Shown here piece by piece: positions 9,852 through 22,440 of a stretch of DNA of 40,308 bases. Position numbers and translations under genes: made by a program. Under the pieces are notes generated by a model, which searched no databases, was not told where the DNA came from, and saw only the letters and a list, made by a program, of their open reading frames with translations. How positions within the stretch are numbered: the first letter of the stretch is position 1; each line of letters starts with the position of its first letter. Where the stretch lies: the NCBI GenBank assembly GCA_021813905.1, contig JAKAJH010000028.1, positions 1 through 40,308 on the forward strand, in the 5' to 3' direction. The DNA is from Bacteroidota bacterium. GTDB taxonomy: Bacteria > Bacteroidota > Ignavibacteria > UBA10030.

Positions 9852-10739
9852 TCAGTGACGCGCATGGGCATCCACCAGTTCCCGGATCTTGTGAATGTGC
9901 GACGGACCGGTGCCACAGCAACCGCCGATGATGTTTACGCCGGCATCGACGATCCGCTGCGCTTTGGGGGCCATGACATCCGGCGTTTCCCGGTAGACAG
10001 ACCGGCCGTCATCCCACTCCGGAATGCCGGCGTTCGCCTGCGCAACAATCGGCAGCGACGTCAACGGACGCATTTCGTGAACGATCTCGATCATCTCGTC
10101 GAACCCCTTGCCGCAGTTCGCCCCGAGCGCATCCGCTCCGGCATCGGTCAGGCGCTGAACCGCCGACGCGATGTCCACGCCCCACATGGTGCGCAGGCCG
10201 GCCTTTCCTTTCTCAAATGTCATCGTTGAAACCACAGGCAAACCGGTCTTTTCTTTCGCCGCGCGAACGGCGACCTCCGCTTCCTCCAGCGCCATCATGG
10301 TTTCGACAAAGAAGACGTCCACGCCTCCTTCGGCGAGCGCGAGAGCGAGTTCGGCGAAGATGTCGTACGCCTCGTCCGCCGTGCGCGGTCCCAGTGGCTC
10401 CAGAATGTCTCCGGTCGGCCCCATCGATCCGGCGACGAACTTTCCCGCCGGCCGGACGGCGCAAGCCAGCTCGGCAGCCTTCCGTCCGAACTCCGCCACG
10501 CGATGCTCGAAGCCGTGCATAGCCAGCCGCGACCGATGACCGCCGAACGAATTCGTTTCGACGAGATCGGATCCCGCCGCATAGTACCCCGCATAAATCG
10601 ACCGGACCTCGTCCGGATGCGAGACATTGAATTCCTCCGGACATGCGCCGGAGGGCAGATTGCGCTTCTGCAACTCCGTTCCCATGGCACCGTCCGAAAC
10701 GAGCAGACGGCCCGAGCTCAGCGATTCAAGAAATGTCAT
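9852..10739 (-). CDS. Homocysteine S-methyltransferase (stand-alone MetH N-terminal-type domain)
   Basis: 295 residues forming a single homocysteine methyltransferase barrel. The three zinc-binding cysteines are present: Cys209 in GANCGKG and Cys274-Cys275 in GGCCGTGP. The N-terminus has the family motif DGAMGTELQ (16-24) and ETNSFGG (61-67). The enzyme moves a methyl group to homocysteine and so makes methionine. In MetH this is domain 1; here it is a separate protein. Its ATG overlaps the stop of the corrinoid protein gene by 4 nt (ATGA), so the two are translated together, which makes the methylated corrinoid protein the likely donor. A betaine- or S-methylmethionine-dependent enzyme would not need the neighbours and is less likely. 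Confidence 0.9.
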   Translation of the reverse strand: MTFLESLSSGRLLVSDGAMGTELQKRNLPSGACPEEFNVSHPDEVRSIYAGYYAAGSDLVETNSFGGHRSRLAMHGFEHRVAEFGRKAAELACAVRPAGKFVAGSMGPTGDILEPLGPRTADEAYDIFAELALALAEGGVDVFFVETMMALEEAEVAVRAAKEKTGLPVVSTMTFEKGKAGLRTMWGVDIASAVQRLTDAGADALGANCGKGFDEMIEIVHEMRPLTSLPIVAQANAGIPEWDDGRSVYRETPDVMAPKAQRIVDAGVNIIGGCCGTGPSHIHKIRELVDAHARH

Positions 10740-11386
10740 GACCGTTCCGTCGCTCTGATGCCGAGGAGGGCTTTCGCCTTCTCGACCGCTTCCGAAGCAT
10801 TCTTTGCATACGCGTCAGCCCCGACCGCGGTCGCAAAGGCCGCCGAGACGGGGGCGCCCCCCACCATTGTGCGCGCCGCGATACCTTCCTCTTTCAGTCG
10901 GTCGATCACCGTCCTCATGTATCCCATCGTCGTGGTCAGGAGCGCCGACATGCCGAGGATGTGCGCGCCTTCCCGCCGGATGACGTCGATGAACTTTTCC
11001 ACCCGAACGTCCACGCCGAGGTCGACCACCTTGAATCCGGCTCCACGGAGCATCATCGAAACGATATTCTTGCCGATGTCGTGGATATCGCCCTTCACGG
11101 TCCCGATGACGACAACACCTGTTTCTTTCACGTTCGCCGCCGCAAGGATCGGTTCGAGGATGGCAAGTGACGCTTTCATGGCGCGGGCGGAGATGAGCAC
11201 TTCGGGTACGAAGATGATGTTGTCGCGGAACCGCACGCCGACCACGTCCATCCCCGGCACAAGCCCCCGATCCAGCACCTCTTTCGCGCCGGCACCTTCG
11301 GCCAGCAGTTGGCGCGTGAGCTCCTCGCACCGGTCCTTGCTGCCTTCGATCACCGCCGCCGAGAGTCGGGCAAACAATTCATTCAT
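10736..11386 (-). CDS. Corrinoid (cobalamin-binding) methyl carrier protein
   Basis: 216 residues. The N-terminal half is the helical cap of methionine-synthase-like B12 proteins, including GMDVVGVRF and the family signature FVPEVLISARAM. The C-terminal half is the Rossmann B12-binding domain with the base-off ligand motif D100-x-H102-x-x-G105 in GDIHDIGKN, then SALLTTTM and GGAPV. This is the architecture of corrinoid proteins MtaC, MtbC and MttC and of MetH domains 2 and 3. The start at 11386 follows AGGAG by 7 nt. The gene overlaps both neighbours by 4 nt. It should shuttle the methyl group between the UroD-type methyltransferase and homocysteine. Confidence 0.92.
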   Translation of the reverse strand: MNELFARLSAAVIEGSKDRCEELTRQLLAEGAGAKEVLDRGLVPGMDVVGVRFRDNIIFVPEVLISARAMKASLAILEPILAAANVKETGVVVIGTVKGDIHDIGKNIVSMMLRGAGFKVVDLGVDVRVEKFIDVIRREGAHILGMSALLTTTMGYMRTVIDRLKEEGIAARTMVGGAPVSAAFATAVGADAYAKNASEAVEKAKALLGIRATERS

Positions 11387-12045
11387 CCCACCACTCCTGG
11401 CCCTTCCGTGCATTCCCGCAGGCCAAACACCCCCGACAGGGACTTCTGCGGAAGCATAAAATACGTATCCGTCAGCGAGATTCCAATCTCTTCCGCCCGG
11501 AGCATCGGCAACAGCACCGACTGGTCGCGGATCGGCCAGCGGGTGTATCCCGGCGAGAACCGGTACGCAACTTCGCAAGTCCGCTCACGCGCCCGTTGGT
11601 CCAGCTCGGTCCGAAGCGCGGCAAGCACGCCATCTGCCAGCGCCGATGCGACGCCGTCGAAAAAGTACGCTTCGGAGAAATCCTCGACCGAGCGCCGTTC
11701 CTGTTCGCGGTCCACCTCCTCGCCGAGCGTGAGCGCGAAGCAGGCCGCCCACCGGGAGGCATGGAGCAGTCGGGCGATGCCTTCGCCGTGGAATTCGGTT
11801 CCACCCTCCAGCCGTGCGGTCCCGCGCCCGAGATCAACCTGCGCCACCGGGGCGATGAGAAATCGATACCGCGGCTTGATGATTTTGCGGAGCTGTGCAA
11901 GCAATTCCCGCGTCAGCTCCTGCATGGTGGAAAACTTGTCAGACGAGCGGCGGATCTTCAGGAACCGGCAGGCGACGTCCTCGGAGAACGGCACCGCGTC
12001 CGGGGAGAGCCAGCGCGTGATGATCTCGGGCCCAGATGCGGTCAC
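11383..12045 (-). CDS. Stand-alone methionine synthase activation-domain protein
   Basis: 220 residues resembling the AdoMet-binding reactivation domain at the C-terminus of MetH. The AdoMet motif R-x-x-x-G-Y is present as RFSPGY (162-167), followed by the conserved segment IGISLTDTYFMLPQKS (188-201) and a final SGVFGL. In MetH this domain remethylates cobalamin that has become oxidised to the Co(II) form, using AdoMet and an electron donor. The start is taken as GTG 12045, which overlaps the TGA of the RACo-type gene (GTGA). The ORF upstream of it lies inside that gene in another frame. As a separate protein beside a second activator it suggests two routes of reactivation, or one combined route. 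Confidence 0.87.
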   Translation of the reverse strand: MTASGPEIITRWLSPDAVPFSEDVACRFLKIRRSSDKFSTMQELTRELLAQLRKIIKPRYRFLIAPVAQVDLGRGTARLEGGTEFHGEGIARLLHASRWAACFALTLGEEVDREQERRSVEDFSEAYFFDGVASALADGVLAALRTELDQRARERTCEVAYRFSPGYTRWPIRDQSVLLPMLRAEEIGISLTDTYFMLPQKSLSGVFGLRECTEGPGVVG

Positions 12046-13886
12046 AACCGGTCCGGAAAGAGCATCGAGTTGACGAACACGTCCTGGAAGTCCGGCTTTT
12101 CGGAGATCTCCACGTATCCGACATCGCGGCTGAGGCGCTCCGCCTTTTCCCGCGCCTGCCGGGAGAGCAGCACCGCCTCGGCCCCTGCCAGGGCGGCATT
12201 GCCGATGAACCGCACGCGCTCTTCGGGAACCGGCGGCAGGAGCCCGCAATCGACCGCATCCTTACCGCGCACGTGGTTGCCGAACGCTCCGGCGATGGAG
12301 ACGGTGGCGATCTGCCCGGCGTCGACGTTCAGCTCTTTCATCAGCATGCGGATACCGGTGGCGATGGCGCTCTTGGCGAGCTGAACTTCCCGCACATCTT
12401 TTTGGGTGAGAAGGATGGAACGGTCCGCATCGATGCGGGCAATAGCGATGTCGTTCACGCCGGTCTCGCGGGGAATAAGCCGCCGGCGAAGCGCGGGCGG
12501 AACGCTTCCCGGCAGCTGATCGGCGGCCCGGATGCGTCCCGACGGATCGATCACCCCCGCACGGTAGAACTCGCAGACAAGATCGAGGAGGCCCGAGCCG
12601 CAAATGCCGACAGGTTCCACGCCGCCGATGGTGCGGATCTGCAGGTCGCCATCCACGATCTCCGCCCGCTCGATGGCACCGCGGGCTGCGCGCATCCCCC
12701 ACTCGATGTAGGCCCCTTCCCATGCGGGACCCGCCGGCGACGAGGCACACACCATCCGCGAGCGCGAACCGAGCACCATCTCTCCGTTGGTTCCGATATC
12801 GACCGCGAGATGGATCGCATCCTTGTCATCGATATCCAGCACTGTCAGGACGCCGGTGATGTCCGCACCGACGAAGCTGGCGAGATTGGGAAGAACGTAG
12901 ACGCTTCCGCCGGGATGGATGTCGAATCCGAGTTCACGGGCGGACACCAGCGCCGGTCCCTGGAACGCCGGTGCGTACGGCTTGGAGGCGACGTTGCGCG
13001 GATCGATCTTCAGGAGAAAATGTTGCATGACGGTGTTTCCCACCGCCACGATGCGCACGATCCGATTGCGGGCGATGGCGGCCTCTTCGCACATGAGACC
13101 GATCATCGCGTTGATCTCTTTCACGATCATCCGGTGCATCAGCTCGAGGCCGCCCGGATGTTCGATTGTGTACTGAATGCGGGAGATAACGTCGGCGCCC
13201 TGCGCCTTTTGCGGATTCAGCGCCGTGCCGATGGCGCGCGTCTCTCCTGTCTGCAGGTCAAGAAGCTTTGCCGCGACCGTGGTGGTGCCGACATCCACTG
13301 CCACGCCGAAGAGTCCGGCAGCCGTCGGCGGTTCAACGGCGAGGAGCGCTTGTCCGTCCACAATGGCGGAGACGCCGAACTTCGAGTCACGGAGAACAGC
13401 CGGCGCTGCGCGGACCGCGTCCAGGTCGAACCGGTCCACCCGCGCGTGCTGTCGTGCGAGCGCATCCTGCAGCTGCTCGAAATCGAAGTACTTCTCGCTC
13501 AGCGTCGGCTCGGGGAGCTGCACGGAGACCTTCCGTACATCGGGATCGAGCGGGAAATGCCCCCGCCGCCCTTCGACCATGATCTGGTCGCCGAACGTTT
13601 GCGATCCTTCCGGAACGACGCAGACGCACGGGCCGGTGATCTGCGCCTGGCAGGAGAGTCGCGTTCCCCGGGAGCGATCACGCGCCGAAAGCAGCTCCTC
13701 CTCGACACGCGAGAGCGGCGAGAGTCCTTCATGCGCCTGGACTTTGCATTTGCCGCAGGTGCCGATGCCGGCGCAGGTGGATTCGATGACGATTCCGAGC
13801 TCCAGCGCTGCGTCGCGCAGATTGGTGCCCGTCTCGAAATGACCGGTCTTCTTGCCCGGAAGGAACAGGACCTTGTGGAGGGTCAT
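12042..13886 (-). CDS. RACo/RamA-type ATP-dependent corrinoid activator with [2Fe-2S] domain
   Basis: 614 residues. The N-terminal ferredoxin-like domain has a plant-type [2Fe-2S] pattern with Cys38, Cys44, Cys47 and Cys79 (TCAGIGTCGKC and RLSCQ). After a linker comes an ASKHA-fold ATPase (DUF4445-like): GVAVDVGTTTVAAKLLDL near 230, AVGNTVMQH near 320, AVDIGTNGEM, and SIAGAFGNH near the C-terminus. Such activators use ATP to drive one-electron reduction of inactive Co(II) corrinoid proteins to Co(I). The chosen ATG at 13886 begins the ferredoxin domain and lies 4 nt after the UroD-type gene. It is usually found next to corrinoid methyltransferases, as here. RamA-type enzymes carry 4Fe-4S clusters instead, so RACo is the closer match. 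Confidence 0.9.
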   Translation of the reverse strand: MTLHKVLFLPGKKTGHFETGTNLRDAALELGIVIESTCAGIGTCGKCKVQAHEGLSPLSRVEEELLSARDRSRGTRLSCQAQITGPCVCVVPEGSQTFGDQIMVEGRRGHFPLDPDVRKVSVQLPEPTLSEKYFDFEQLQDALARQHARVDRFDLDAVRAAPAVLRDSKFGVSAIVDGQALLAVEPPTAAGLFGVAVDVGTTTVAAKLLDLQTGETRAIGTALNPQKAQGADVISRIQYTIEHPGGLELMHRMIVKEINAMIGLMCEEAAIARNRIVRIVAVGNTVMQHFLLKIDPRNVASKPYAPAFQGPALVSARELGFDIHPGGSVYVLPNLASFVGADITGVLTVLDIDDKDAIHLAVDIGTNGEMVLGSRSRMVCASSPAGPAWEGAYIEWGMRAARGAIERAEIVDGDLQIRTIGGVEPVGICGSGLLDLVCEFYRAGVIDPSGRIRAADQLPGSVPPALRRRLIPRETGVNDIAIARIDADRSILLTQKDVREVQLAKSAIATGIRMLMKELNVDAGQIATVSIAGAFGNHVRGKDAVDCGLLPPVPEERVRFIGNAALAGAEAVLLSRQAREKAERLSRDVGYVEISEKPDFQDVFVNSMLFPDRL

Positions 13887-13890
13887 GCGG

Positions 13891-15066
13891 TCAGTACCGG
13901 CCCAGCTCTTCGGCGAGCGGAGCCAGGAGTTCGATGTTCTGCGGCGGCGTATGCGGCGCAATGGAGCAGGCCGAGCTCAGGATGTAGCCTCCGCCGGGTT
14001 TTCCGACCTCGAGCCGGTGGCGTACATCAGCCCGCACGTGCTCCAGATCGGCCTGGAGCAGCGTATTGACCGGATCGATGTTTCCTTTGATGAACGTCTT
14101 TCCGTGCAGCGTCCTCTTCGCTTCTTCCAGCTCCACGGTTCCCAGCGGCGGCGGATCCAGCGTATCGATGCCGTTGGTGCCGGTCTGCATCATCAGGTCG
14201 AGCCGGTCGCCGATGCTTCCACACGTGTGCGTGTAGACAGGGAGTTCGAATTGTTCCCGGATGCCGGTCACGATGCGACGTTCGTACGGCAGCACGAATT
14301 GCTCGTAATGCTGTCGCGAGATCAATCCCGCCCCGGCGAACGCGGACGAAATGAGGATGGCATCCACACCCAACGCCGCCTGTCGACGGCCGAGGTCGAT
14401 CGCACCGTCCGTGAGCCGGTCCAGACATGCGTGCACCTTGCCCGGATCGTCGATGATCGCCATCAGGGCGTGTTCGTAATTCAGCAATTCGAGGAATTGC
14501 GACCAGGGGGAGAACACTTCCGAATGCACCGAAATCGTGTCGCCCACCCGCCGCTTCACCGCGCGGATGGTGTCGCCGTGATACGGCGGGAAGAAGTCGC
14601 TGTCCGGACGCGAGTCCGTATCGAATCCCCACGTGTACGGATAGGTGATATCCGTCATGTCCCACGGCTCGACGTAGAACAGATGTTCAGGTTCGATCTC
14701 ACCGAACGTGGGGAAGAAACGCGTTCCGTCGGCCTGATAATAGTGGGGATTGTCATCATCCGGAACGACGGAGTAGTTGCCGTTCTTCCATCGGACGATC
14801 GTTTCCCCCTCACCCCGTTCGATCGTGCGGACGTGCCGCTCGAAATCGGGGTCGCGCCCCGGGAGATTGATCAGAATGCCGTCGAACCGGTAGCGCTGCT
14901 GGAGCCGGACGAGGGCTTCGGCGAAGGATTCCGAGCGGTACCAGATATCCACCGGCGGAATGCCGGCGTGCAGAAAGTAGTGGCCGATGGAGAGCTGCGA
15001 CATCACCGGGACGCGATCGGGCGTTCCCAGTTGCATCGCCTGTCGGATGCGTTCTTTGGAAGTCAT
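13891..15066 (-). CDS. UroD-family corrinoid-dependent methyltransferase
   Basis: 391 residues in the uroporphyrinogen decarboxylase/MtaA fold. The zinc motif of the methyltransferase branch is present: His280-x-Cys282 in HTCGSIGD and a distal Cys367 in SSACSIAP. The substrate-carboxylate arginines of true HemE near the N-terminus are not evident, so tetrapyrrole synthesis is unlikely. Members of this branch move methyl groups between corrinoid proteins and thiols, or demethylate methoxy and methyl-halide compounds. It heads the operon and should load the corrinoid protein encoded downstream. The donor cannot be read from the sequence. The start at 15066 gives the usual TSKERIRQAM N-terminus. 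No clear promoter or SAM riboswitch was found in the 146-nt gap to the divergent gene. Confidence 0.88.
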   Translation of the reverse strand: MTSKERIRQAMQLGTPDRVPVMSQLSIGHYFLHAGIPPVDIWYRSESFAEALVRLQQRYRFDGILINLPGRDPDFERHVRTIERGEGETIVRWKNGNYSVVPDDDNPHYYQADGTRFFPTFGEIEPEHLFYVEPWDMTDITYPYTWGFDTDSRPDSDFFPPYHGDTIRAVKRRVGDTISVHSEVFSPWSQFLELLNYEHALMAIIDDPGKVHACLDRLTDGAIDLGRRQAALGVDAILISSAFAGAGLISRQHYEQFVLPYERRIVTGIREQFELPVYTHTCGSIGDRLDLMMQTGTNGIDTLDPPPLGTVELEEAKRTLHGKTFIKGNIDPVNTLLQADLEHVRADVRHRLEVGKPGGGYILSSACSIAPHTPPQNIELLAPLAEELGRY

Positions 15067-15212: not shown

Positions 15213-15677
15213 ATGAAGTCCGGTATCCTTCTTACAGGCATCCTATTCATCAGCCTCGTCGCCTCCGCGCAACCTTCGCGGCTCGCGGACACCTCCGACC
15301 GATCGGAGCGCGCCGCGATCACGCATCTCCTCCAGGACTTCTACATTCGCGGCCTGTACGTCGATCGTGACGACGCCGTGCTGCGCGCCGACGTGCATCC
15401 GGAGTGCATCTTCGTGATGGTGGACGGTGCCCGGACGCATCGGTACGAGTGCGCGGACATGCTTCGCCGGGTTCAGGAATGCCGCAAGGTGAATCCCATT
15501 CCGCGGACCGAATCCGTCGCCGCGGATCTTCGGATGCTCGACATCGACGGCGGCAGCGCATTTGCGCGCGTGAATCTCGCAATCGGCGGCATTCCGGTCA
15601 CAAACGAACTCGTATCGCTGCTGCGCACCGCGGACGGCTGGAAGATCGTCTCGCGCGTCGCCCGCCGTCAAAGCTGA
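15213..15677 (+). CDS. Secreted NTF2-like (lumazine-binding/DUF4440-type) protein
   Basis: 154 residues with a signal peptide (MKSGILLTGILFISLVASAQ, cut after ASA). The rest matches the cone-shaped NTF2-like fold: helix with AITHLLQDFYIRGLYVDRDD, then strand pairs with HPECIFVMVDGAR, and the final strand LRTADGWKIVSRV. Proteins of this type bind small ligands or act as simple enzymes; no catalytic residue can be assigned. GGAGA lies 7 nt before the ATG. It is divergent from the corrinoid operon and converges on the alpha-mannosidase gene, so it stands alone. Confidence 0.8.
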   Translation: MKSGILLTGILFISLVASAQPSRLADTSDRSERAAITHLLQDFYIRGLYVDRDDAVLRADVHPECIFVMVDGARTHRYECADMLRRVQECRKVNPIPRTESVAADLRMLDIDGGSAFARVNLAIGGIPVTNELVSLLRTADGWKIVSRVARRQS

Positions 15678-15763: not shown

Positions 15764-18700
15764 TCAGCGCCGTCCAAGCGTGATGCGAACCGTTTCCACC
15801 GAATGCGGAGCGGTGGGCACCTCCACGCGATTCTTCTCCGGCTTCAGCGCTTTCCCTTCTTCCTCCAGGAAATTCGACTGCACCGCGCTCCGGATCGGCT
15901 CGGGCATCGTAAGCGTAGCTGTCGACGCAACGCCCAGTCCGTCGTACCACTCCACCACCCAGTCCGACCCGTCCTCGGACATCTTCATGGTCGTCAGGAC
16001 AAGATTCGCGGGCTCCAGACGGACGAACGAATACCGGACCGGCATCGATCCCGCGTGGCGCGTGGTCAGTTCCGCACGGAGCGGAATGTTGTACTCATAT
16101 CCCCGGTGCAACAGCTGCGATTTGTTCCACCGACCCGCATGCGGATAGAGGGCATAGTGAATGACGTGCTTGCCACGGTCCGCCGTCGGGTCGGGCCATT
16201 TCGGCGAACGCAGCAGCGAGAGCCGCACGTTGCTGCCTTTGATATCGTAGCCGTACTTGGACGTGTTCATGAGTGCCACGCCATAATCGTCATCCGACAG
16301 ATCGGCCCAGCGGAGCGCCGGAACCTCGAATTGTGCCTTCTCCCAGCTTGTACGGGATTGCGTGGAGCGTTGGATTGTGCCGTACGGGATCTCGTACGTC
16401 GCCACCGTGTCCTGAACCGTCAGCGGGAAGGCGACCTTCAGCATCGTCTTGTCTTCCCACCAGTCCACGCGGGTCGTAAAATCAATACGGTCGAGTCCAT
16501 TATACAGCACCACGTCCTGCGTGAAGAACGAGGAGGGGAAATCTTCGGTCGGATACTCCTTTTTCGTGCCGGGTTTCAGATAGTCCCGGAAAAGCCGTAC
16601 GACCACACGGACGGGGCCGTTCTCGACCACTTCGGCGCGGCGGAACGTGGAAGGATACTTCACGCCGGTCAGGCCGATGTTCCAGGCATCCCAGGCGCTG
16701 GGCTTGTCCTCCAGCAGCTGCAGCTCGTTCCCGGCGCCCGCGAGGAGCTCACGATTCGAGCGCTTGTCGATGATACTGCTCACCCAGCCGGTCTTGTCGT
16801 CGACGGCGATCCGGAACAGGTCGTTCTCGAGTCCCGACGGACTGACCTTCAGCGATGAGGTCGACGAAGGCTTCTGACGTCGAAGGTCGTAGGTCGCGTA
16901 GCCGAGCGATGGCACGCCGCGGGCGATGAAGAGCACTTCGCGGTGATACCGGTCCAGATCATGGATCTGCGATGGAACTTCCTTGCCGTTCGCGTCGAAG
17001 ACGGCGATCGGACCCTCATCGCCGGCGGGTACAGCCACCCGCACCAGGTCGTCGCGGTCCCACGAAAGCGAATTGAAGACAACCACCGGCGTTCCTTTGA
17101 GGGAACGCGTATTCACCTTCCCGGCGAGCGCGATGAGGCTGCGGTTGAGCTCATGGGTTCCGATAGCCTGCGCCGTGTCGTATTTCTCGTTGGCGTCGAT
17201 GTACGTCTCGCGGATGCCCGAGCCGGGCAGGATGTCGTGGAACTGGTTGAACATCACGTTCTTCCAGGCGTCGAACATGGCGCCCTTATCGTACGGCGAG
17301 CCGGCTGTCGTGGCGAGGGTGCTGTACTTTTCCGCATCGGTCATCAGCACTTCGCTCGCGCGGTTGCGCTCCTTCATCTTCGCCTGTGTCGTAAAGGTGC
17401 CCTGGTGGTACTCCAGATAAAGCTCCGATGACCAGACCGGGACACTGCTCAGGTCCTGCGACGTGAGCCACTTCAGATAGGTCGTCGCCGTCCCGTACTC
17501 GATGGTGGGATAGATGTCGAGCTGGCGCAGGCGGTCGATGCGCTGCATCATGTCGAGCGACGGTCCGCCGCCGTGGTCGCCGACGCCGAACAGCACCAGC
17601 ATCTTCGTCATCCCGGTGTTCGCCTCGAACTGCCGCGTCCAGTCCACCAGCTGGAACGGGTTCTTCACTTCATTCACATAATCGAACGGGAAGTAACTCA
17701 GCACGCGGGAACCGTCCGCCGACTGCCACCAGAAGAGGCGGTACGGGAAGACATCCGTATCATTCCACCCGATCTTCTGCGTGATGAAGGCGTCGATGCC
17801 CGCCTGCCGGTAGAACATCGGCATGTTGGCGTTGTAGCCGAACGAGTCAGGGTTCCAGCCGATCTTCACATCCACCCCCATCTTCGACCGGAAGTAGCGC
17901 TTGGCGTACAGGAGTTGCCGCGCCCACGATTCGCCGCTCGGCAGATTGCAGTCCGGCTCGATCCACATCCCTCCCACCACCTCCCAACGACCGTCCTTCA
18001 CCCGTTGCTGCATCTGCCTGAACGTGTCCGGATAGTAGCGTTCCATCCAGTCGTAGTACGCCGCGGCGCTCTGCGTGTACGTGAAGTCGGGCCGAGCGTT
18101 CATCATGTTAAAGACGGACCGGAACGTGTTGTTGCAGACTTCAATCGTTTCCTTATCGCGCCAGAGCCATGAGGCATCGATATGGGCGTTGGCGTCGAAG
18201 TAGAGAGTGAACCGCTTCGCGAAATCGGAGACCGGCTTGATGCGCGTGCGGAATGCGGCAAGTTGCGCATCGAATTTCTCTTTCGGTCCGATCGCGATCG
18301 CGCTGAGATCGAACTCGCGCGCGGTCCGTTGCAGCAGCTCCATCAGTTGCGTCTTTTCAGCCCGGTCCATCCGCGACTTGTCGGTGCCGGGGTCGACTGT
18401 ACGGTTGGAGCTTGTCTGGTACGTGTCGAAACTGAGCAGCTTCTGTCCCACCCGCAGACTCATCGCGAGATTTTCGATCGTTTGCCGGAGCCCCGCAACC
18501 GCATCCGACACCAGCGCGGCGCTGATGAGCCGCAGAGGTCCTCCCGTGTTGATGGCCTTGATCACGACGAGGAACCGCTGCCCCGGCGTGACGTTATCGG
18601 TCAGGAGAAAATCACCGTCCCAGGGAAAGCGTCCGCGGCTTTCGCCGTTTACCCAGAGATAACCGTAGTCGTCCACCGAGAGCCGGAAGCGCATGGGACC

Positions 18701-18994
18701 GGACAGCGGCGTTCCCAGGATCTGCTGCGGCACGACGATCTCCTTTCGGATCCAGCACGAATCGTAGGACAGCGACTGGTCAAGCGTCAGATCAGTCCAT
18801 TGTGAGTCGTCGAATCCCGGCTTCGTGGGATCGCCCGACGGAGCCCAGGATTTCAGGTCGGGACTCACTTTCCAGTGGTCGACGGAAGCCATGCTCAGCG
18901 AGTCGAGCGCGCGGACCAGGCGGTCGACATCGGTCTGGGCGCGGGCGATCGGTGCAAGCAGGCAGAGGAGCATCAGTATTCGCAGCGTTCGCAT
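15764..18994 (-). CDS. Secreted GH38 alpha-mannosidase
   Basis: 1076 residues with a signal peptide (MRTLRILMLLCLLAPIARAQ). A beta-sandwich region (about 50-165) precedes the GH38 catalytic domain. The zinc ligands His271 and Asp273 are in NAHIDASWLW, the nucleophile is Asp383 in GWNPDSFGYN, and a further zinc histidine is in FHDILPGS. The middle helical domain and C-terminal beta domains complete the family layout. Such enzymes remove alpha-mannose from glycans; here it acts outside the cytoplasm. GGAGGT lies 5 nt before the ATG. It follows the sugar ABC permease gene by 43 nt and is probably the last gene of that operon, which suggests that released sugars are imported by the same system. 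Confidence 0.93.
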   Translation of the reverse strand: MRTLRILMLLCLLAPIARAQTDVDRLVRALDSLSMASVDHWKVSPDLKSWAPSGDPTKPGFDDSQWTDLTLDQSLSYDSCWIRKEIVVPQQILGTPLSGPMRFRLSVDDYGYLWVNGESRGRFPWDGDFLLTDNVTPGQRFLVVIKAINTGGPLRLISAALVSDAVAGLRQTIENLAMSLRVGQKLLSFDTYQTSSNRTVDPGTDKSRMDRAEKTQLMELLQRTAREFDLSAIAIGPKEKFDAQLAAFRTRIKPVSDFAKRFTLYFDANAHIDASWLWRDKETIEVCNNTFRSVFNMMNARPDFTYTQSAAAYYDWMERYYPDTFRQMQQRVKDGRWEVVGGMWIEPDCNLPSGESWARQLLYAKRYFRSKMGVDVKIGWNPDSFGYNANMPMFYRQAGIDAFITQKIGWNDTDVFPYRLFWWQSADGSRVLSYFPFDYVNEVKNPFQLVDWTRQFEANTGMTKMLVLFGVGDHGGGPSLDMMQRIDRLRQLDIYPTIEYGTATTYLKWLTSQDLSSVPVWSSELYLEYHQGTFTTQAKMKERNRASEVLMTDAEKYSTLATTAGSPYDKGAMFDAWKNVMFNQFHDILPGSGIRETYIDANEKYDTAQAIGTHELNRSLIALAGKVNTRSLKGTPVVVFNSLSWDRDDLVRVAVPAGDEGPIAVFDANGKEVPSQIHDLDRYHREVLFIARGVPSLGYATYDLRRQKPSSTSSLKVSPSGLENDLFRIAVDDKTGWVSSIIDKRSNRELLAGAGNELQLLEDKPSAWDAWNIGLTGVKYPSTFRRAEVVENGPVRVVVRLFRDYLKPGTKKEYPTEDFPSSFFTQDVVLYNGLDRIDFTTRVDWWEDKTMLKVAFPLTVQDTVATYEIPYGTIQRSTQSRTSWEKAQFEVPALRWADLSDDDYGVALMNTSKYGYDIKGSNVRLSLLRSPKWPDPTADRGKHVIHYALYPHAGRWNKSQLLHRGYEYNIPLRAELTTRHAGSMPVRYSFVRLEPANLVLTTMKMSEDGSDWVVEWYDGLGVASTATLTMPEPIRSAVQSNFLEEEGKALKPEKNRVEVPTAPHSVETVRITLGRR

Positions 18995-19037
18995 AGGTAC
19001 CTCCGGATTGAACATTCGTTGACAACGAAGGGATGTA

Positions 19038-19970
19038 TCAGGCGCGGAGCCGGTCGAGAAGCACCGCGAGCAGAATGACGGCACCGACGATGATCTGCTG
19101 GACGTACGAGCCGACGTTCAGCAGGTTGAGTCCGTTGCGCAGAACGCCGATCAGGATCGAGCCGATGAGTGTGCCGATGACGGTGCCGCGGCCGCCGGTG
19201 AGACTCGTGCCGCCGACCACGACCGCCGCGATCACGTCGAGCTCATACATCAGTCCTGCATTCGGCTGGCCCGAATTCATGCGGGAGGCAAGCAGGATGC
19301 CGCTCACGGCCGACAGCATGCCGCTGACGATATAGACCTGGAACAGCACGCGCTTCGTATTGATCCCCGCCAGCCGCGCCGCTTCGGCGTTGCCGCCCAC
19401 CGCGTAAACATATCGCCCGAACCGGGTATAGGTCAGGATCACGTGCACCACCGCAAAGACAAGCACCATGATGATCGTCGGCGCCGGAATGCCGAGGATC
19501 CGCCCTCCGCCGAGCAACGCGAAGGCATCCGGCAGTTCCCACACCGGCCGGCCTTCCGTCAGGACAAAGGCCGATCCTCGCCAAACGGTCATCAGCGCGA
19601 GGGTCACGATGAAGGGCGTAATGTTGAAGCGTGTGATGAAGAGTCCTGCAACGCCCCCGCTGACGGCTCCGAGGAGCAGTCCGGCAGCCAACGCAAACGT
19701 CAGCGCCAGCGCGAACGACACATCGACTTTCAGCGCCATCGTGGAGAGAACGCCGGCACATGCGACGATCGATCCTACCGACAGGTCAATGCCGCCGGTC
19801 AGAATCACCAGCGTCATTCCTGCGGCAATGATGGCGGTGATCGAGATCTGGAGCGAAACGTTCAGCAGATTGTCGGGGGTGAAGAAGTACGGGGACAAGA
19901 TACCGAACAGCACCAGCTCGAGGATCAGAGCCAGCCCGATGCCGAATCGTTTCAGGAGCGAAGAAATCAC
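19038..19970 (-). CDS. Sugar ABC transporter permease (RbsC/MglC family)
   Basis: 310 residues with about ten hydrophobic segments. It carries the family motif GIDLSVGS near residue 60, which marks permeases of the ribose/galactose/xylose type, and GGTSLTGGRGTVIGTLIG near 250. The start is GTG 19970 with GGAG 7 nt upstream. It forms the membrane channel of the importer together with the ATPase encoded 15 nt upstream and the binding protein before that. Substrate is not fixed by sequence; galactose is suggested by the divergent galK. Confidence 0.92.
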   Translation of the reverse strand: MISSLLKRFGIGLALILELVLFGILSPYFFTPDNLLNVSLQISITAIIAAGMTLVILTGGIDLSVGSIVACAGVLSTMALKVDVSFALALTFALAAGLLLGAVSGGVAGLFITRFNITPFIVTLALMTVWRGSAFVLTEGRPVWELPDAFALLGGGRILGIPAPTIIMVLVFAVVHVILTYTRFGRYVYAVGGNAEAARLAGINTKRVLFQVYIVSGMLSAVSGILLASRMNSGQPNAGLMYELDVIAAVVVGGTSLTGGRGTVIGTLIGSILIGVLRNGLNLLNVGSYVQQIIVGAVILLAVLLDRLRA

Positions 19971-19985
19971 GATGGACTCCGGTTC

Positions 19986-21482
19986 TTATGCGAATGCGGT
20001 GGCGAGCGCCATCACCCGTTCGCGCGTTGCGTCGGCCCGGGGGAGCGTTCCGGTGATGCGTCCGTCGCACATGACCGCGATGCGGTCGCACACGCCCAGA
20101 AGCTCCGGGAGGTCCGACGAGATCATGATCACTCCGGCACCGTCCCGCGCCAACTCGTTCATAAGCACATAGATCTCGTACTTCACGCCGACATCGATGC
20201 CGACGGTCGGCTCGTCGAAGATCAGGACGCGCGCCTGCGTGTACAGCCAGCGCGCCAGGACGACTTTCTGCCGGTTGCCGCCGCTGAGGGTCTCGACGCC
20301 CGCCTCACGGTTGGCCGGTCGGATGCGCAGCGAATGTACAAACGTGTCCGCGGCCGCATCTTCTTTCTTCAGATCCAGGATGAACCCGCGGCGGACCTGG
20401 CCGAGATCCGCGATGGTGATGTTCTCACGAACCGTGCGCTGGAGGAAAAGGCCCTGATTGTTCCGGTCCTCGGTCAGCAGCCCGATGCCCGATCGGATGG
20501 CATCCTGCGGCGAGGTTGGAGCGATATGCTTCCCGTCGAGCAGGATCGAACCCGATTCCACCGGATCCGCGCCGAAGATCGCCCGAGCAAGGTCGGAACG
20601 TCCCGCCCCCACCAGTCCGGCGATGCCGAGGATTTCCCCCCGGTGCAATGTCAGATTCACGTCCCGGACGCGGATGGTGGTCAGGTGCTCGATGCGGAGA
20701 ATCTCATCGCCTGGCGTGCGCGGGATGGAGGGAAACTCCTGGTCCATCGTGCGCCCCACCATCCAGCGGATCAGGTCGGCGGTCGTCGCCCCCGCCGCCG
20801 GGCACGTCGTGACTACCGCCCCGTCGCGCAGCACGGTGATGCGATCCGCCACCTGAAAGATCTCTTCGAGCCGGTGGGAGATATAGATGATGCTCACGCC
20901 GTCCGCTTTGAGCGTGCGAATCACGTGAAAGAGATGCTCCGTCTCCCGGTCGGTGAGCGGCGCTGTCGGTTCATCCATGACGAGAATGCGTACGCGCCGC
21001 GAAAGCGCCTTGGCGATTTCGACCATCTGCCGCTGGGCGGTCGTCAGATCCCGCACCGGTGTGCGAACTTCAAACGACTCTCCGAGGCGCTCGAGCAATT
21101 CCCTCGCGATCGTTGCACCCGTTGCCGCGTCGAGAAACGGCGTTCCCGGCCGAAGCGGTTCATGCCCGAGAAGAATGTTCTCGGCCGCCGTGAGCTCGGG
21201 GACCAGTCGAAAATCCTGATAGATGATGCCGATCCCCTGCTCCTGCGCGGCGGCGGGCGAAGCCAGCTGCACATCGCGACCGTCGAGCTGAATTGAGCCT
21301 GCGTCTTTGGCGACGGCGCCGGCGAGGATCTTCATGAGGGTGGATTTGCCCGCGCCGTTCTCCCCCACGAGCGCGTGTACTTCGGCGGGCAGCAGATCGA
21401 ACGACACGCCGTCGAGTGCCCGGACCCCGGGGTACTGCTTGATGATGCCTTCCATCCGGAGCCGAGGGGCGGGCGGAGTCAT
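19986..21482 (-). CDS. Sugar ABC transporter ATP-binding protein (RbsA/MglA family, double ATPase)
   Basis: 498 residues with two ABC cassettes. The first has Walker A GENGAGKST (40-48), signature and Walker B (RILVMDEPTAPL). The second has the degenerate Walker A GLVGAGRSDL but an intact signature (LSGGNRQKV) and Walker B (LIFDEPTVGIDVG). One full and one degenerate site is normal for this family. The start at 21482 lies 28 nt after the binding protein gene and begins the family N-terminus. An in-frame extension to 21599 overlaps that gene and is rejected. Confidence 0.93.
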   Translation of the reverse strand: MTPPAPRLRMEGIIKQYPGVRALDGVSFDLLPAEVHALVGENGAGKSTLMKILAGAVAKDAGSIQLDGRDVQLASPAAAQEQGIGIIYQDFRLVPELTAAENILLGHEPLRPGTPFLDAATGATIARELLERLGESFEVRTPVRDLTTAQRQMVEIAKALSRRVRILVMDEPTAPLTDRETEHLFHVIRTLKADGVSIIYISHRLEEIFQVADRITVLRDGAVVTTCPAAGATTADLIRWMVGRTMDQEFPSIPRTPGDEILRIEHLTTIRVRDVNLTLHRGEILGIAGLVGAGRSDLARAIFGADPVESGSILLDGKHIAPTSPQDAIRSGIGLLTEDRNNQGLFLQRTVRENITIADLGQVRRGFILDLKKEDAAADTFVHSLRIRPANREAGVETLSGGNRQKVVLARWLYTQARVLIFDEPTVGIDVGVKYEIYVLMNELARDGAGVIMISSDLPELLGVCDRIAVMCDGRITGTLPRADATRERVMALATAFA

Positions 21483-21510: not shown

Positions 21511-22440
21511 TCAGGGGCGAGGCTGGTCCTTGAGGAGCGTCGCCTGATCGACGATGCCGACCTCGACCGGCACCACGGCCGGTACGGTCTCACCGGCAAA
21601 GTGCTTTGCGATCATCCGGATGGTCGTCACGCCGATCTGCTTCGGATACTGGACCACATCGGCCTTGAGCGCGGTACCTTTGCGGATCGCATCGGCGGCG
21701 GGCGGTGTCGCGTCATATCCCACGATGACGATCCCGGACCGGTTGAACTGCTGGACGGCGTCGAGCGCTCCGAGGGCGGAGTCGTCGTTGATGCCGAAGA
21801 TCGCATTGAGTTTGGGGTTGGACTGGAGAATGTCCGAGGACGCTTCGAGCGCCTTGTCGCGCACGCCCTGTCCGTTCACATCCGCCACGACGGTAATGCC
21901 CGGGTACTTCGCGATGGCTTCGCGGAAGCCCTGCACGCGGTCCAGCACGGAGGTGATCACCGGTTGATTGATGATGGCGACGGTGCCCTTGCCGTTCAGC
22001 GCTTTTGCGATGTACTCGCCCGCCAGTCGTCCACCGGCCACGTTGTCGGAGGCGATATGCGAGAGGACCGTACCTTCCTGGGCGGCGATGTCCGCCGTGA
22101 ACACCGGGATGCCGGCATCATTCGCTTCCTTGATCCCCGGTCCCACGCCTTTGGAGTCGACCGGGCAGACGATGATGGCATCCACCTTGCGCGCAACGAA
22201 ATCCTCGATCTGGGAGATTTGCTTGCCGAGGTCGAATTCCGCCGCCGTGATAATCAGCTCATAGTGGTTCTTCGCCGCTTCCGCTTTCAGTCCCTCCTCC
22301 AGGTCACGGTAGAATATGTGTCCCCGCGTCAGGAGGCTCACGCCGATAGTCTTCGTCGGCTTCTGGGATGACGATCTGCCGCAGGAACCGAGGGTGAGGG
22401 TCAGGATCGCGGCAAGGGCCAGGAGGCAAACGCGCTTCAT
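21511..22440 (-). CDS. Sugar ABC transporter substrate-binding lipoprotein (RbsB/MglB family)
   Basis: 309 residues. The signal peptide ends in a lipobox-like LGSC with Cys20, so the protein is probably a membrane-anchored lipoprotein. The rest is a periplasmic binding protein of the ribose/galactose type: TIGVSLLTRGHIFYRDLEEG at the N-terminus, IIVCPVDSKGVG, VFTADIAAQEG, SDNVAGGRLAGEYIA and GINDDSALGALDAV. The start at 22440 has AGGAAG close upstream. It is first in the importer operon, with a leader of about 100 nt from a promoter that is back-to-back with that of galK. The neighbour suggests galactose or a related hexose, but this is inference. Confidence 0.92.
   Translation of the reverse strand: MKRVCLLALAAILTLTLGSCGRSSSQKPTKTIGVSLLTRGHIFYRDLEEGLKAEAAKNHYELIITAAEFDLGKQISQIEDFVARKVDAIIVCPVDSKGVGPGIKEANDAGIPVFTADIAAQEGTVLSHIASDNVAGGRLAGEYIAKALNGKGTVAIINQPVITSVLDRVQGFREAIAKYPGITVVADVNGQGVRDKALEASSDILQSNPKLNAIFGINDDSALGALDAVQQFNRSGIVIVGYDATPPAADAIRKGTALKADVVQYPKQIGVTTIRMIAKHFAGETVPAVVPVEVGIVDQATLLKDQPRP

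Follow-up and report, generated by a model that had tools for sequence, protein, structure and literature searches.

A corrinoid operon of an Ignavibacteria bacterium as a possible accessory, folate-free methyl relay to homocysteine

We analyzed a 40,308-nucleotide stretch of DNA (the window) from a Bacteroidota bacterium of the Ignavibacteria, contig JAKAJH010000028.1 of GenBank assembly GCA_021813905.1. On its minus strand, from 15066 to 9852, five genes form one run and encode, in this order, a methyltransferase of the UroD superfamily (UroD), a RACo-type activator (RACo), a stand-alone activation protein of the MetH type, a corrinoid protein and a homocysteine S-methyltransferase (HMT). 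The UroD and RACo genes are separated by a gap of 4 nucleotides, and each of the three remaining junctions is a 4-nucleotide overlap (GTGA for RACo/activation protein, ATGA for activation protein/corrinoid protein and ATGA for corrinoid protein/HMT). This layout had been described in an earlier note on the DNA, and both the coordinates and the Pfam matches agree with it. They agree as well on the folate (pterin-binding) domain, which is missing from the run: none of the five genes has a Pfam match to Pterin_bind. The same note had called the set a split methionine synthase. This label is a loose one; NCBIfam places the corrinoid protein near MtgC and the HMT near a betaine-homocysteine-methyltransferase-like family. 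A canonical or split MetH was rejected, the pterin module being absent from the run and represented elsewhere in the genome only by a FolP-like protein and a full MetH.

The residues His280, Cys282 and Cys367 of UroD are its presumed zinc ligands. All 48 relatives compared retain them without change, and the residues aligned with them in the methylcobalamin:coenzyme M (CoM) methyltransferase of Methanosarcina (4ay7) are likewise His, Cys and Cys, in accord with the zinc motif read earlier from the sequence. In HemE none of the three is found in the matching columns, save for an occasional Cys. The HemE model TIGR01464 (cut-off 303 bits) gave 62 bits for UroD and 397 bits for the true HemE of this genome, whose gene is at C54, away from the operon. 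In a tree of the C-terminal half only, 21 UroD relatives formed one group (97/97) apart from HemE, the branch supports for the separation being 97/97 and 100/99. The score and the separate clade rule out HemE identity, and the grouping with true HemE that the earlier note had named as fatal to its proposal is not seen in this tree. Identity as a CoM methyltransferase of the MtaA or MtbA kind was also rejected, as no curated MtaA, MtbA or MtaA/CmuA model passed (95, 86 and 107 bits, each below its cut-off). The predicted model of UroD (pLDDT 95) matched MtaA-type (4ay7) and HemE structures equally, with Z scores of 34.5 and 34.3 that cannot discriminate between them. By sequence, UroD is a member of its own clade apart from HemE; its position relative to MtaA is tentative, resting on long paralogue branches and a single partial MtaA from a PDB alignment, in a tree that leaves aside OdmB, MtvB, MtoB and CmuA.

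The corrinoid protein carries the B12-binding (93 bits) and B12-binding_2 (78 bits) domains, and its best NCBIfam model is MtgC_2 (211 bits, cut-off 370), compared to 151 bits for MetH. The HMT matches S-methyl_trans in Pfam at 240 bits and PRK07534 as its best NCBIfam model (276 bits, cut-off 338), compared to 165 bits for MetH; a PDB search with it returned MetH structures at the top (E 1.2e-47). On these NCBIfam scores, of which the best are still below the curated cut-offs, the two proteins appear nearer to MtgC/MtgE-type proteins than to MetH. RACo gave 253 bits with RACo_C_ter, 190 with Raco_middle, 59 with RACo_linker and 33 with Fer2, and its top NCBIfam model is AcsV (428 bits, below the cut-off of 800). 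The activation protein has a weak Pfam match to Met_synt_B12 (30.5 bits against a cut-off of 25). Its nearest solved structure by phmmer is TM0269 (1j6r; E 6.8e-12), the activation protein of the Thermotoga maritima methionine synthase (Huang 2007, as cited in PMC7857596), and its predicted model (mean pLDDT 93) matched 1j6r by Foldseek (E 2.6e-13, TM 0.76/0.84) and also E. coli MetH 1msk. We accepted the weak domain match as real because of the TM0269 sequence match and the predicted-fold match. The PGY motif is invariant in 8 relatives, and sequence and model together clearly point to a protein of the TM0269/MetH type. Both are stand-alone activation proteins of the S-adenosylmethionine (AdoMet, or SAM) type, and TM0269 is the best match by sequence and by predicted fold, with the PGY motif in common. 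They differ in their partners, a small corrinoid protein here and a MetH lacking the activation domain for TM0269, and in the RACo-type activator gene that adjoins the activation protein gene in the operon. The joint presence of an ATP-type and an AdoMet-type activator, to which the earlier note had drawn attention, is real, and the pairing recurs in a few relatives.

The source genome (3.08 Mb, estimated to be 100% complete) was examined by family search for the genes of methionine and folate metabolism. It encodes two pterin-binding proteins, one of 307 amino acids, presumably FolP, and one within a frame of 1197 amino acids. The latter is an intact, full-length MetH in which the HMT, pterin, B12 and activation domains are all in place; the apparent stop in its activation domain is merely the normal stop, where the profile match ends. 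Another HMT, the third of the genome, forms one protein with a MetF-like half, and no MetE-type protein was found. The search proposed in the earlier note was therefore borne out in part, with neither MetE nor an additional pterin methyltransferase, and in part not, with full-length MetH and the HMT-MetF fusion both present. These two rule out the operon as the sole methionine synthase, and the suggestion that it is the methionine route of this genome falls with them. Because they make up a complete folate route, the operon is an accessory one. No stand-alone folate methyltransferase is encoded in the genome. Since the pterin-binding proteins are limited to the FolP-like protein and MetH, with none at the loci, no acceptor other than homocysteine is visible in this system.

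We scanned the UroD alignment against genome contigs and kept 80 related loci, which span Bacteroidota, Ignavibacteriota, KSB1, Gemmatimonadota, Acidobacteriota, Planctomycetota, Sumerlaeota and others, several of these phyla being little studied. At 19 of the 80 loci an HMT gene is found no more than 5 kb from UroD, where about 0.5 would be expected by chance (Poisson P 2e-23, a value that ignores shared ancestry, with the cases spanning several phyla). The corresponding counts are 18 for the corrinoid protein, 13 for corrinoid protein and HMT both, 13 for RACo and 4 for the activation protein; all are lower bounds, as contig ends truncate some of the loci. UroD, the corrinoid protein and HMT recur together across phyla, and most relatives lack the activation protein. 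The UroD-corrinoid-HMT trio is also present at three further loci, in three genomes, of a divergent group with about 40% identity. Pairwise distances of UroD, corrinoid protein and HMT rise and fall together across 18 loci (Mantel r 0.80-0.89, with no correction for species phylogeny), which fits co-inheritance. Neither the window nor any of the 80 UroD loci yielded a pterin-binding sequence, and in 24 of the 27 other genomes with relatives the pterin-binding proteins are confined to the FolP and MetH types. The pterin-binding methyltransferase that might always co-occur from elsewhere in the genome, a possibility raised in the earlier note, was thus not found; the three genomes with an additional pterin-binding protein are G224 (353 amino acids), G297 (330) and G302 (952). 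Where UroD stands alone, a corrinoid relative is encoded elsewhere in 35 of 37 genomes (E 1e-20), some of these matches being the MetH domain. The corrinoid relative adjoins HMT away from UroD in G317, G338 and G339, and in G337 it lies beside both HMT and a pterin-binding protein. In G296 (L052) and G297 (L056), full-length MetH and MetE-type proteins were not detected and UroD-cluster genes are present; the completeness of both genomes is in doubt, and we do not use this absence as proof.

We consider it somewhat probable that the operon encodes a folate-free methyl relay of an accessory kind, from a small methylated compound through the corrinoid protein to homocysteine. In its favor are the tight run with every domain confirmed, the recurrence of UroD, corrinoid protein and HMT in several phyla, the correlated distances of the three proteins, the corrinoid relatives next to an HMT in genomes where UroD stands alone, and the precedent of MtgBCDE (PMC12478193). 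Gene content and order, motifs, folds and conservation are observed; the catalytic steps are inferred from what is known of these families, and the direction of flow and the donor are inferred as well. UroD would move the methyl group of the donor onto the corrinoid protein in its Co(I) state, and HMT would pass it to homocysteine to form methionine. Co(II) arising by oxidation would be restored by RACo (with ATP and its [2Fe-2S] domain), by the activation protein (with AdoMet), or by both. The earlier proposal of a methyl group moved straight to homocysteine thus gains support as a folate-free relay, no extra pterin protein being present, and loses it as the methionine route of the genome. 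Several observations weigh against the relay. The intact MetH and the HMT-MetF fusion leave no essential gap for the operon to fill; UroD stands alone at most of the 80 loci, so that the partners need not be neighbors; and neither a SAM nor a cobalamin riboswitch was detected when the window and 18 related loci were searched at gathering thresholds. In addition, G224, which encodes a UroD 69% identical to that of the operon, has its corrinoid protein at a separate locus (L132, G224:C23:13000-28000) together with HMT, methylenetetrahydrofolate reductase (MTHFR), a folate-type pterin-binding methyltransferase, an activation protein and RACo. Because of this clustering, folate can be an acceptor in some relatives. 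The folate-free form is a feature of the operon and most of its close relatives, not of all, and across the family as a whole the acceptor side is not uniform.

The evidence on the donor is divided. For methyltransferases of this kind, His-Cys-Cys zinc sites are associated with S or Se substrates and carboxylate-bearing sites with O substrates (PMC10418091). If this rule holds, the invariant His-Cys-Cys site of UroD favors a methyl-S or methyl-Se donor over a methoxy compound, which the earlier note had listed among its candidates. The same relay would then serve in salvage: a thioether or a methyl-thiol/selenol (for example methanethiol, dimethyl sulfide or a methylthio-sugar) would give its methyl to homocysteine with release of the thiol, as proposed for type 1 mlp clusters. 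A Cys/Met-metabolism protein of the pyridoxal phosphate type, recognized by eye directly upstream of UroD-corrinoid-HMT-activator at L094, adds to the case. Yet the ligand rule is general rather than specific to the UroD clade, the site alone is no proof of substrate, the window run contains no sulfur or selenium gene, and many neighbors elsewhere are sugar genes; we entertain this donor tentatively. Such neighbors speak for an O-methylated sugar or cyclitol, freed by a glycosidase, imported by an ABC or SSF transporter and demethylated with methionine as the methyl sink. A GH38 glycosidase and a ribose-type ABC transporter are encoded next to the operon (Table 1), and their orthologues, in a different gene order, lie by UroD in L055 and L069 (59 and 66% identical for GH38). 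SSF symporters, LacI, phosphomannose isomerase (PMI) and Gfo/Idh genes neighbor UroD at L044 and L046, SSF genes are near it also at L082, L086, L091 and L095, and at paralogous UroD-corrinoid loci the neighbors are GH10 and FGGY kinase genes (L132) or a GH42 gene (L133). However, the His-Cys-Cys site differs from the carboxylate-type site reported for O-demethylases, and an opposite-strand gene separates the GH38/ABC set from the operon. L055 and L069 may have this set through common descent, and such neighbors are common in polysaccharide-degrading bacteria. We think a sugar donor unlikely, though less so than the two alternatives that follow. As zinc site and neighborhoods disagree, we do not commit to one donor.

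The remaining alternatives alter the relay itself. The operon could perform an ordinary demethylation to tetrahydrofolate, through an unrecognized enzyme or the pterin domain of MetH, with HMT as a side branch. The bacterial corrinoid demethylases known so far do end at tetrahydrofolate (PMC10418091), and G224 and G337 link the corrinoid protein to both HMT and pterin-binding proteins, in G224 with MTHFR. This reading is improbable in our estimation, given that the source genome, like most cluster genomes, has only the FolP-like and MetH pterin-binding proteins and that the 80 UroD loci lack a pterin gene. Less probable still is a reverse flow, in which the corrinoid protein receives its methyl group from AdoMet or methionine and UroD hands it on to a thiol or another substrate, analogous to the SAM-driven methylation of estrogen by EmtABCD in Denitratisoma. 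Methylation of a corrinoid driven by SAM has a precedent (PMC7448270), the operon encodes an activation protein of the AdoMet type, and UroD resembles CoM-methylating enzymes. The activation protein is, however, found at so few of the 80 loci, whereas HMT is common, and homocysteine as recipient is the well-known direction of the HMT family.

Table 1. Genes of the corrinoid operon and of its neighborhood in the window
Feature	Position	Strand	Basis or remark
UroD-superfamily corrinoid methyltransferase, presumed donor-side enzyme	13891..15066	-	Pfam URO-D 149 bits; presumed Zn ligands His280-x-Cys282, Cys367
RACo/RACE-type ATP-dependent corrinoid activator, N-terminal [2Fe-2S] domain	12042..13886	-	Pfam RACo_C_ter, Raco_middle, RACo_linker, Fer2
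Stand-alone MetH-type (TM0269-like) AdoMet activation protein	11383..12045	-	GTG start; RFSPGY motif; Met_synt_B12
Corrinoid (cobalamin-binding) protein, presumed methyl carrier	10736..11386	-	B12-binding, B12-binding_2; DIHDIG motif
Homocysteine S-methyltransferase (HMT), presumed acceptor-side enzyme	9852..10739	-	S-methyl_trans; cysteine motifs GANCG, GGCCG
Small open reading frame, SnoaL/NTF2-like (by eye), between GH38 gene and UroD	15213-15677	+	
GH38 alpha-mannosidase-type glycosidase, neighboring set	15764..19003 (start approximate)	-	Pfam GH38 N, middle, C domains
Ribose-type ABC transporter permease, neighboring set	19038..19970	-	PF02653; orthologues by UroD in L055, L069
Ribose-type ABC transporter ATPase	19986..21482 (start approximate)	-	Two ABC_tran domains; orthologue by UroD in L055
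ABC transporter periplasmic substrate-binding protein	21511..22440 (start approximate)	-	Peripla_BP_4 205 bits; orthologues by UroD in L055, L069

The GH38/ABC set is listed as a set of neighbors, and its inclusion does not imply co-transcription with the operon.

Of the systems already described, MtgBCDE of Ruegeria pomeroyi and the split synthase of Phaeobacter inhibens use one corrinoid protein for both demethylation and methionine synthesis, with a pterin subunit (PMC12478193, PMC5764234). They share with the operon a stand-alone corrinoid protein and a stand-alone HMT, theirs accompanied by a RamA-like activator, and the top NCBIfam scores of our two proteins point toward their families; the comparison was made through family models, with the proteins of the two species themselves outside it. 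In contrast to MtgBCDE, the donor enzyme of the operon is of the UroD rather than the MttB type, the pterin subunit MtgD is missing from both operon and genome, a MetH-type activation protein takes the place of DUF1638, the genes lie in one run, and the proteins score below the NCBIfam cut-offs as given above. The type 1 mlp clusters of Kountz and Balskus, UroD-corrinoid-activator sets without a folate methylase (PMC10418091), are similar in their His-Cys-Cys methyltransferase of the UroD superfamily, corrinoid protein and RACE activator. They have at least two Mlps and no HMT is described for them, whereas the operon has an HMT and a single UroD, of a separate clade. Membership requires at least two Mlps with corrinoid protein and activator, and was rejected for the operon on this count. 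The core methionine synthases MesA-MesD are folate-free, and MesA-MesC are thought to draw their methyl groups from corrinoid proteins (PMC7857596). The operon would likewise form methionine without folate, but Mes enzymes are of the MetE type (COG0620) and its HMT belongs to the MetH/BHMT-type S-methyl_trans family. Finally, the O-demethylase and chloromethane systems OdmB, VdmB, MtvB, MtoB, CdmB and CmuA combine a UroD-superfamily methyltransferase, a corrinoid protein and an ATP-dependent activator, as the operon does, with a second methyltransferase that acts on folate or, in archaea, on CoM (PMC13222342). This second methyltransferase is not present in the operon. Membership in the O-demethylase systems was rejected: the site is His-Cys-Cys, not carboxylate-substituted, and no folate methyltransferase was found. 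A UroD-corrinoid set with HMT as its only visible acceptor was not found in the literature searched, which was limited.

A broader claim, which we advance with less confidence than the relay, is that of a widespread and undescribed folate-free system that couples demethylation of environmental compounds to methionine through a dedicated UroD-corrinoid-HMT set, in which the donor enzymes form a new UroD clade and some lineages have both types of reactivation. If the relay works as proposed, some bacteria take the methyl group of methionine straight from methylated compounds and bypass folate, and a UroD-type, folate-free branch is added to the known corrinoid methyl-transfer systems. The UroD clade, probably often annotated merely as "uroporphyrinogen decarboxylase family", would gain a function, and predictions of one-carbon metabolism from genomes would be corrected for Ignavibacteria, KSB1, Gemmatimonadota and others. 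The two reactivation types in one operon also provide a testable case for the division of work between them.

Several further loci were noted. The source genome has a second corrinoid protein (L050, G000:C3:10000-21000), 42% identical to that of the operon over its full length and 46% in the core, and about 4 kb from it another protein of the UroD type, whose site is also His-Cys-Cys; GH3-like, LacI-like and NupC-like transporter genes were recognized by eye in the surroundings. At L132, UroD is of the His-x-Asp type and GH10 and FGGY kinase genes adjoin the cluster, which is possibly one for O-methyl-sugar demethylation with both acceptors. L133 (G255:C21) and L134 (G093:C9) each encode three UroD-type proteins with a corrinoid protein and an activation protein; the UroD paralogues differ in their zinc-site residues, and the neighbors are GH42/PMI-like genes, or PfkB, PhyH-like and Gfo/Idh-like genes. 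Genes for dioxygenases of the PhyH type lie close to UroD at L044 (checked by Pfam) and, by eye, at L046, L069, L092 and L093, and are perhaps an oxygen-dependent counterpart. At the divergent loci L045 and L094, a gene near UroD-corrinoid-HMT encodes a long protein that resembles pyruvate:ferredoxin oxidoreductase (by eye) and could supply reduced ferredoxin. L135 (G004:C8) and L136 (G196:C80) have a UroD-type protein, a corrinoid protein and an MtaB-like protein (by eye) in a row, possibly a methanol methyltransferase set.

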